From: a virus
IMG/VR virus record: IMGVR_UViG_3300019881_000002
Span: 1 to 46,359 of that record
Length of the DNA: 46,359 bases
Direction: 5' to 3' (one strand)
The notes below the pieces were generated by a model. That model searched no databases, was not told the DNA's origin, and saw nothing but the letters and a program-made list of their open reading frames with translations. Of this stretch, positions 43,861-45,843 are shown piece by piece (position 1 is the stretch's first letter; each line of letters starts with the position of its first letter). The translations under genes and the position numbers were made by a program.

Positions 43861-44030
43861 CGCCATGTCCAGCGCAGACCGGGCCGGTTTGGAAGACCGG
43901 CGGCGAGGTGTGCGGCTGCGTCCTTTCGGCTGGTCACGAGACCTCGCCGGACGTCCACGAGCGGGATCACGTGTGCGACTGCGGAGCGTGGTGGATCGAT
44001 GCCGACCGACGCGACCAGCCGGCCGCCTGA
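43857..44030 (+). CDS. 57-residue zinc-binding-like protein
   Basis: ATGA overlap at the start. Cysteine and histidine pattern (CGCVLSAGHETSPDVHERDH, VCDCGAWW) suggests one zinc site. Overlaps the start of the MuF-like gene by 32 bases. Function unknown. Confidence 0.62.
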   Translation: MTPCPAQTGPVWKTGGEVCGCVLSAGHETSPDVHERDHVCDCGAWWIDADRRDQPAA

Positions 44031-45843
44031 GTCCGCCTCGCCGGCCCTCGCCGCCGGTCTCGCCATCGCGGTCACGCAGGTCTACGCCGAAGCCGAGGCC
44101 GCGATCCTCGCCGTCATCACCCTGAATGTCCGAGCGGCTCTGTCCGCACCCGTCCCCGGTGTCGCCCTGGCGGGCCGCTCGGCACCCATTCTCACCGCGA
44201 CGCGACGCGCTCTGGACGACGCTGAGCGCCACGCGGCCACGGTGGTGCCCCGCGTACTCGCCAAGGCCTACGAACGCGGCCACGGTGCCCAGGCGCGCGC
44301 GGGCGCGCAGGCCACACAGAACGTCCTCGAACGTCTCGCCGCTCTCCGGCAGGGCGTACTGCACTGGGTCGGGCAGCTCCTGAACCGCCTCGTCGCCGCG
44401 CTCCGCACCCCGACGCCGCTGCCGATCGCCGGCCACGCCATGCAGCAGGCCGCCGGCCGTGGCATCACCGGCTTCGCCGACCGGCACGGCCGCTCGTACG
44501 GCCTCGACTCCTACGTGCACCAGACCGTGCAGCATCAGGCGGGCCAGGCCGCCATCGACGGCTTCACCGATCGCCTCGCGGACGCGGGCGACGACCTCGT
44601 CATCGTGACCGAGTCCCCGCATCCGTGCCCGCTGTGCGACCCGTGGGAGCACAGGGTGCTGTCGGTCTCCGGCCGTGACCCGCACCGCCCGAGCATGGCG
44701 ACCGCTCGCGAGGCGGGGCTGTTCCACCCGAACTGCTTCCCGGGCGACGTGCTGGTGTCAGCGCCTTCGGGTGTACGCGCCGCGGATTCCCGTTGGTACG
44801 AGGGTGACGTTGTCGTCATCCACACAGCCAGCGGCCAGGAACTGACCGTCACCCCAAATCACCCGATACTGACGCCGGAAGGATGGATCGCTGCGGGCCT
44901 GCTCGTAGTAGGCGATCGCGTCCTTCGCTACGGCCGCGGGGTCCAGCCGGTGGATAGCGTGGGTCCAGGCGATGAGCAGGTTCCAGCCCGCATCGGCGAT
45001 GTATTCGACGCGCTCCGGCAGGCGCTCCCAGTGCCGCCCACTTCGGTGCCAGGCTCCGCCGAACAGTTCCACGGCGACGGGGGCAATGCCGATGTCGAGA
45101 CTGTATTTGCCGACGGCCTGTTGAGGGATTGGGCCGAGCGCGGCGAGATGGGCGGCGATGGCGCGCTCATCGTCGGTGGCTCCAACCTGCGTCTCTTGAC
45201 GGCTGATGGCTCGACGGATGAGTTCATCCTCGGTGCGGGCCACGCCCCTGACGGCGGCGTGAGCGGCGGCGGTGTTCGCGGATCGCTTTGTGCTCGTCAT
45301 CTTGGCGTTGCGGCGGCGCTGGGCCTCGCTCCGGCTGATGCCAGCACCGCGCTTCTTGAGCCACCTGGCGACGAGGGCCTGATTGGTGCCATGGATGGCC
45401 GCGATCTGGGTTTGCGACTCTCCGGCCTGGTATCGCCTGACGAAATCGTCAATGTCGGCGTCCGTGAATTTGCGGCGCACGTGTACAACCTCCAGACGGG
45501 CGACGGCTGGTATGTCGCTAATGGAATTGTAGTGCACAACTGCCACCACACGATCCAGCGCTGGTATCCCGGGTTCGTCTGGCCGCCGCACTCGCTGCAC
45601 AACCTGCCCGGCACCTACGAGGCGACGCAGCGCCAGCGTGACATCGAGCGGCACATCCGGTCCTGGAAGCGCAGGCAGGCTGCCGCCCTCGACGACGTCA
45701 CCAAGGCCAAGGCAGGTGCGAAGGTCCGCGCCTGGCAGGCCGAGCTACGGCACCACCTCGCCGCCGAGGACCTGACCCGCTCCCGCCAGCGCGAGCGCAC
45801 CGACTACGGCCACACGCCGCCCTTCAAGCACGCGCACGGATAG
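43999..45843 (+). CDS. MuF-like minor head protein interrupted by an intein
   Basis: 614 residues as precursor, about 345 after splicing. N-extein residues 1-245 are helical with a C210-P-L-C213 pair; residues 515-614 form the C-extein. The joined exteins read GLFHPN-CHHTIQRWYPGF, the conserved HPNC end motif of MuF/phage minor capsid protein 2, with the cysteine that remains after splicing completing a C-x-x-C...H/C site. This class sits near the portal and can take part in DNA ejection or early infection. The intein sits exactly at the most conserved motif, so loss of splicing would destroy the protein. Confidence 0.88.
   Translation: MPTDATSRPPESASPALAAGLAIAVTQVYAEAEAAILAVITLNVRAALSAPVPGVALAGRSAPILTATRRALDDAERHAATVVPRVLAKAYERGHGAQARAGAQATQNVLERLAALRQGVLHWVGQLLNRLVAALRTPTPLPIAGHAMQQAAGRGITGFADRHGRSYGLDSYVHQTVQHQAGQAAIDGFTDRLADAGDDLVIVTESPHPCPLCDPWEHRVLSVSGRDPHRPSMATAREAGLFHPNCFPGDVLVSAPSGVRAADSRWYEGDVVVIHTASGQELTVTPNHPILTPEGWIAAGLLVVGDRVLRYGRGVQPVDSVGPGDEQVPARIGDVFDALRQALPVPPTSVPGSAEQFHGDGGNADVETVFADGLLRDWAERGEMGGDGALIVGGSNLRLLTADGSTDEFILGAGHAPDGGVSGGGVRGSLCARHLGVAAALGLAPADASTALLEPPGDEGLIGAMDGRDLGLRLSGLVSPDEIVNVGVREFAAHVYNLQTGDGWYVANGIVVHNCHHTIQRWYPGFVWPPHSLHNLPGTYEATQRQRDIERHIRSWKRRQAAALDDVTKAKAGAKVRAWQAELRHHLAAEDLTRSRQRERTDYGHTPPFKHAHG
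44758..45480 (-). CDS. Homing endonuclease encoded antisense inside the intein (HTH + Vsr/EDxHD-like)
   Basis: 240 residues from a GTG with GGAGG eight bases upstream. Residues 5-45 are a helix-turn-helix (FTDADIDDFVRRYQAGESQT, IAAIHGTNQALVARWLKKRG) and a basic linker follows. The nuclease part has Glu105 (DDERAIAAHL), the strand pair QQAVGKYSLDIGIAPVAVEL with Asp129 and Glu138, then GGAWHRSGRHWERLPERVEY (His145) and DAGWNLLIAW. This is the pattern of Vsr/DUF559-related EDxHD homing endonucleases. The ending SFRRQYRVIWGDGQFLAAG also looks family-like. The gene lies wholly within the 807-bp intein and its codons are in register with those of the sense strand. It should cut intein-free MuF alleles. 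Confidence 0.85.
   Translation of the reverse strand: MRRKFTDADIDDFVRRYQAGESQTQIAAIHGTNQALVARWLKKRGAGISRSEAQRRRNAKMTSTKRSANTAAAHAAVRGVARTEDELIRRAISRQETQVGATDDERAIAAHLAALGPIPQQAVGKYSLDIGIAPVAVELFGGAWHRSGRHWERLPERVEYIADAGWNLLIAWTHAIHRLDPAAVAKDAIAYYEQARSDPSFRRQYRVIWGDGQFLAAGCVDDDNVTLVPTGIRGAYTRRR
45489..45493 (-). promoter_or_regulatory. Ribosome binding site of the antisense endonuclease
   Basis: GGAGG on the minus strand, eight bases before the GTG start (45480-45478). On the plus strand these bases belong to Asn252-Leu253-Gln254 of intein block F (VYNLQT), so splicing sequence and translation signal share the same DNA. Confidence 0.75.
45526..45531 (-). promoter_or_regulatory. -10 promoter candidate of the antisense endonuclease
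   Basis: TACAAT on the minus strand is the exact complement of the ATT-GTA codons for Ile265-Val266 in intein block G. It would start a transcript about 38 bases upstream of the GTG. No good -35 hexamer is seen at 16-19 bases, so the promoter may be weak or activator-dependent. AT-ending codons are concentrated here (6 of the last 10 intein codons), against the bias of the genome. Confidence 0.45.

Follow-up and report, generated by a model that had tools for sequence, protein, structure and literature searches.

The window, that is, the whole 46,359-nt stretch of viral DNA analyzed here (IMG/VR record IMGVR_UViG_3300019881_000002), contains an open reading frame at 43999–45843 (+) that encodes a MuF-type minor head protein and matches Phage_min_cap2 (PF06152, E = 6e-28) in two separate stretches. 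The gene is interrupted by an intein of 269 aa at 44734–45540 (+), which begins with Cys1, carries TPNH at residues 40–43, ends in VVHN, and is followed by Cys+1. The splicing-motif set (Cys/Ser/Ala1, TxxH in block B, C-terminal His-Asn, and Cys/Ser/Thr+1) is complete in the window intein and conserved in 47 aligned relatives. The intein model TIGR01443 matches the ORF over its cut-off; TIGR01445 and PF14890 match as well, both below theirs. In the predicted structure, the ends (approximately residues 1–70 and 221–269) are confident and HINT-like, pLDDT falls below 50 at residues 128–160 and 162–216, and a Foldseek search with the model returned intein splicing domains as top matches. (Alignments for structure prediction were built from the window and IMG/VR or genome-contig rows only.) Profile searches gave no sense-frame nuclease match between blocks B and F of the window intein and, by this measure, no in-frame endonuclease.

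The opposite strand of the intein carries an ORF of 240 aa (45480–44758 (−)) with a GTG start and a TGA stop. Its codons are exact complements of the intein codons (hereafter the codon-aligned register), and it overlaps 723 of the intein's 807 nt (90%). The stop lies opposite Ser9 (TCA) of the intein and the start opposite His249 (CAC); the original prediction had placed both frames and these two residues correctly. The product combines a helix-turn-helix (HTH) domain at residues 7–43 (45352–45462 (−)), matched by HTH_28 and present in the predicted model, with a nuclease domain at residues 103–220 (44821–45174 (−)), delimited by profile, alignment, and fold.

One or two HTH domains followed by a nuclease domain are characteristic of the whole antisense protein family. 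Single members give weak matches to REase_MTES_1575, DUF559, or Vsr, those to PF18741 and DUF559 mostly below the curated cut-off, and a PDB search with a single antisense nuclease sequence gave no match. A 28-member profile matches the catalytic domain of I-Bth0305I (PDB 3r3p, E = 7.8e-7) and 3hrl (E = 1e-6). In an alignment of 60 sequences, E105 (45166–45168), Y126, D129 (45094–45096), V137, E138 (45067–45069), and R157 are invariant and H145 (45046–45048) occurs in at least 90%; E105, D129, E138, and H145 are putative counterparts of the acidic and histidine active-site residues of the EDxHD enzymes. The AlphaFold2 model of the antisense protein has a pLDDT of 91.3, and Foldseek ranked 3r3p first (probability 1.00, with an E value of only 0.01) and 3hrl second. 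By profile and predicted fold, the gene at 44758–45480 (−) thus appears to encode a member of the EDxHD (Vsr/DUF559-like) nucleases of the I-Bth0305I type, which bears out the earlier reading of its sequence as an HTH followed by a Vsr/EDxHD-like nuclease.

Conservation and selection on the two strands

Given the Leu and Ser codon usage of the extein, the antisense frame would be open in the 69% GC window with P ~0.14. Because openness in such a GC-rich context is unremarkable, it is weak evidence by itself, and the case rests on relatives. A tblastn search with the antisense protein gave matches in 106 phage records; in 101 of these, at least 80% of the protein was covered. In every record examined, the match lay opposite the strand of a head gene. 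The first loci collected comprised 33 intact inteins of 42–69% GC with the antisense nuclease frame open and codon-aligned. Scans of IMG/VR enlarged this set (one scan gave 439 relatives, of which the best 80 were kept), and a total of 182 nuclease-bearing loci was sampled; these include near-duplicates, and the statistics that follow are based on subsets that are non-redundant or independent. In 181 of the 182 loci the nuclease gene is antisense to a stop-free, codon-aligned sense frame, and both splice ends lie in the same ORF in 172. Stops summed over the three opposite-strand frames of all 182 loci number 5 in the codon-aligned frame (all from a single locus, L123) and 1487 and 2798 in the other two. 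Only TTA, CTA, and TCA break the other frame in this register, and each of the three has synonyms that can replace it, so that the register places no limit on which enzyme is encoded; these codons account for 0 of 4580 Leu and Ser codons in the nuclease genes vs 506 of 4265 in exteins. In a control set of 28 ordinary cellular inteins, the mean was 7.1 antisense stops per 250 codons.

Two loci (L006 and L018) had the appearance of exceptions, but in each of them one break interrupts both frames, and L018 is an UNVERIFIED record. In two others (L100 and L120), the sense intein is intact and the antisense nuclease seems truncated; these may be decay stages of a homing cycle.

Substitutions per codon were counted at sense positions 1/2/3 in 13 independent, ungapped pairs to establish which strand is under selection. 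Sense position 1 is antisense position 3, so an excess at position 1 in the nuclease core means that the antisense protein is selected and the intein middle apparently tolerated filler. The upstream and downstream exteins gave.095/.071/.364 and.110/.062/.290, respectively, and the last 20 intein codons, which lie outside the overlap,.027/.019/.146. Block B gave.080/.026/.110, with both strands constrained. The nuclease core gave.190/.047/.100, the reverse of the flanking extein; position 1 exceeded position 3 in 12 of the 13 pairs, with one tie (binomial P = 4e-17). Amino acid identity in the core was higher for the antisense than for the sense product in 13/13 pairs (for example, 75% vs 46% for L173/L182). 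The window compared with locus L002, a diverged pair, gave 55/41/75 at antisense positions 1/2/3, in the same direction. The original prediction thus came through both of the checks that it had named as able to refute it: the antisense protein matches a homing-endonuclease catalytic domain by profile, and the related inteins retain the antisense frame, open, conserved, and under selection. An antisense ORF that arises merely from GC-rich codon usage, with the intein alone real, would fit the P of ~0.14 in the 69% GC window, but this reading is refuted by the codon-position test and the family profile, is at odds with a frame also open and conserved at 42–50% GC and with a confidently predicted nuclease fold, and has a negligible probability.

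The substitution pattern divides the intein into regions. Blocks A and B (44734–44931 (+), with TPNH at 44851–44862) are read on both strands and show few substitutions at all three codon positions. The middle (44932–45465 (+)) is little constrained on the sense side; judged by its substitutions and its low predicted confidence, it seems to be constrained almost only on the antisense side, and its intein product appears to be tolerated filler. About 90% of the intein DNA had been predicted to code twice. This holds for the open frames, and dual selection is confined to the first ~66 codons. Similarly, the notion that the two proteins are locked together by shared codons applies to the N-terminal splicing blocks and block F, and fails for the apparently tolerated middle.

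We considered whether the conserved middle ('FHGDG...GEVEVV') could instead be a true intein domain with the antisense conservation as its shadow. In its favor, the motif shows at least 90% conservation when the sense products are aligned, and residues 1–133 of the intein are matched by a PHROG head-protein profile. However, FHGDG results from reading the nuclease motif VAVE in reverse, with an exact correspondence for FHGD, and where the sense product alternates between V and I across from D129, the nuclease has synonymous GAC/GAT changes. In 13/13 pairs, the sense product has the lower identity over the middle, and intein residues 128–216 are predicted at a pLDDT below 50. We rejected this reading on the pairs, the silent swaps, and the low pLDDT, and regard it as extremely unlikely.

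Start signals within the splicing motifs

The antisense start codon lies 60–66 nt from the C end of the intein in 165 of 172 complete loci, and the typical start region, GGAGGTTATAAAC-ATG, corresponds to block F, (H)VYNL(Q/E), read in the reverse direction. In low- and high-GC groups alike, TATAAT matches are most frequent across from block G, at an offset of 9 relative to the C end. Expected counts were obtained by resampling synonymous codons from each locus's own extein over 123 non-redundant loci. Exact TATAAT at offset 9 or 28 was observed 48 times (2.7 expected), Shine-Dalgarno (SD) sites 88 times (23.8 expected), and ATG starts 106 times (45.9 expected); these counts are descriptive, because the loci that revealed the motif positions also served to test them. 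The 28 ordinary cellular inteins had 0 TATAAT and 0 ATG at the corresponding places. In the window, block F (HVYNL, 45478–45492 (+)) read in reverse supplies the antisense start codon, here GTG, and most of the SD sequence GGAGG (45489–45493 (−)), 8 nt before it. Block G (GIVVHN, 45523–45540 (+)) in reverse supplies the −10-like hexamer TACAAT (45526–45531 (−)), a 5/6 match located where the box is conserved across the family, 9 nt in from the C end of the intein.

This −10-like box is a candidate promoter element of the antisense gene. Together, these signals support separate expression of the antisense gene, which would start from sites embedded in the C-terminal motifs of the intein. We also considered whether most antisense genes might be unexpressed remnants that persist by hitchhiking with the inteins. 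A few members do seem truncated (L100 and L120, above), but the invariance of nuclease residues in 60 diverse members, strong purifying selection, and the retention of start signals above codon-usage expectation make this very unlikely.

Probable mobility, host sites, and a second enzyme

The head gene of Salmonella phage PK2, used as a query, matched 348 Jersey-like records; in 58 of these, the match extends over at least 80% of the full-length gene. In most other records among the matches listed, both flanks match in two pieces spanning ~1029–1044 nt vs 1860 for the full allele. We read these alleles as intein-free because they are shorter by the 816 nt of the intein; on this comparison of lengths, intein-free alleles are common in close relatives. 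Conversely, the inteins are far more alike than their flanks in several pairs (L009/L166, L013/L027, and L032/L169). In L009/L166, 11 of 181 sense first positions differ in the intein vs 29 of 60 third positions in the extein. Distances for the nuclease gene, the intein ends, and the exteins are only moderately correlated (Mantel r = 0.34–0.56).

Most of the inteins are inserted at the 'HPNC-RC' cysteine of MuF. In Virus Rctr197k (L035:2001-2885 (+)), an intein with an antisense nuclease occupies a dCMP deaminase (PF00383, 2e-10) at its PCxxC motif. Two further loci (L079 and L084) have antisense-nuclease inteins in host genes that do not resemble MuF, with no Pfam match in the pieces searched. 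A single family member lies outside any intein (L123:2491-3316 (+)): its nuclease gene is convergent with an uninterrupted MuF gene and overlaps the end of it, an arrangement that is possibly a picture of the founding step.

Among the GenBank entries examined, either the intein (Snoke) or the antisense ORF, as 'hypothetical' (PK2), is annotated, and never the pair as a unit. Several labels at these loci merit comment. The deaminase gene of Rctr197k is annotated as 'putative head morphogenesis protein', a name that probably stems from similarity of the intein itself. The 'head protein' PHROG profile phrog_15127 appears to include intein sequence, the FHGDG motif among it. The label 'NAD+--asparagine ADP-ribosyltransferase', given to the MuF head gene in NBSal007, ZCSE7, and other Salmonella phages, is probably a misannotation.

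The same slot is occupied by a different enzyme in nine records of Gordonia phages (Sitar, Lennon, Nordenberg, Thing3, SchottB, and Barsten), where a MuF intein carries an antisense, codon-aligned LAGLIDADG frame (for the Sitar/Barsten group, L034:2004-2591 (−) and L184:1501-2088 (+)). The Gordonia protein is related to freestanding phage endonucleases; I-MsoI is matched at 0.0013 with the Gordonia protein alone and at 1.2e-13 with a profile that includes the freestanding relatives, and the Sitar protein alone has no significant Pfam match. Sites that differ between Sitar and Barsten number 51/6/16 at sense positions 1/2/3 in the nuclease span and 2/1/17 in the upstream extein. The start codon of the LAGLIDADG frame is not associated with the block F signal and is located 123 nt from the intein end.

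The antisense nuclease could be real yet not, or no longer, a homing enzyme, serving instead, for example, in attack on competing phages or in head-gene regulation. Its DNA-binding HTH domain would suit such roles, its nuclease activity is a prediction, and phage homing enzymes can exclude rivals too. Against this, the gene is nearly always nested in an intein at a conserved position in a head gene and moves together with the intein, close relatives often have intein-free alleles, and near-identical inteins sit in diverged flanks (e.g., L009/L166). We consider a role other than homing unlikely, and it is the alternative that retains the most weight.

A proposed two-strand element and its relation to known systems

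We conclude that the locus is very probably a mobile intein whose homing endonuclease gene lies on the complementary strand of the intein DNA, in the codon-aligned register. In the sense reading, the head protein would be translated through the intein, which would splice itself out, with the segment between blocks B and F serving as filler. An antisense transcript probably starts inside or just outside the 3′ end of the intein, and the HTH and EDxHD nuclease would be translated from it as a separate protein, using the ribosome site within block F. In mixed infections, the nuclease would cut intein-free head genes at the insertion site, and repair of the cut would copy the whole 807-bp cassette; homing of this kind is suggested by the distribution of the intein. 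With less confidence, we think it likely that such loci form a distinct class of two-strand mobile element, widespread in tailed phages (439 relatives in one IMG/VR scan), in which one strand encodes an intein and the complementary strand the homing endonuclease of that intein. In this class, the signals for endonuclease expression (−10 promoter element, ribosome site, and start codon) would fall within the codons of motifs G and F, and the slot would have been filled at least twice (EDxHD and LAGLIDADG).

Such an element would be a natural case of near-full antisense overlap between two mutually needed proteins in which the selected strand is evident region by region, and would offer a workable system for studying how antisense genes arise and are maintained. 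The two-strand layout would separate the expression of splicing from that of homing. It would also explain 'head protein' inteins without a visible endonuclease in Salmonella, Escherichia, Pseudomonas, Klebsiella, and Gordonia phages, and would mean that standard annotation overlooks a whole class of homing enzymes. The general rule for hiding one gene behind another in the codon-aligned register would be to avoid TTA, CTA, and TCA.

In the open-access literature, with most subscription papers outside our reach, we found analogues only and no description of antisense endonucleases inside inteins. Split inteins ('fractured genes') have an EDxHD/Vsr-like endonuclease between the gene pieces. They share with the present system an enzyme of this type associated with an intein, but their endonuclease shares no codons with it. 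Classical mobile inteins encode the homing endonuclease in frame between blocks B and F, and both proteins come from the same precursor (PMC3943268). Like them, the element described here joins a self-splicing element and a homing endonuclease into a single cassette that occupies a conserved position in a host gene and is present in some relatives and absent from others; unlike them, its endonuclease is a separate gene that runs through the intein codons on the other strand. I-Bth0305I (EDxHD family, PDB 3r3p) belongs to a mobile intron (PMC3943268). The window enzyme resembles it in its catalytic domain, by profile and predicted fold, and in having a separate DNA-binding region, but lies antisense inside an intein. 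In ShiLan, an HNH homing endonuclease is encoded out of frame in an uninterrupted phage gene (PMC11855218); it too is hidden in another frame, but on the same strand and without a splicing domain. Nuclear rDNA group I introns have antisense homing endonuclease genes inserted in a peripheral segment of the ribozyme (PMC9548176), and thus share a gene opposite the strand of the splicing element. There, the reverse complement of the endonuclease gene need not be translated, whereas here it is read as intein, and the splicing motifs of that intein appear to double as start signals for the gene on the other strand.
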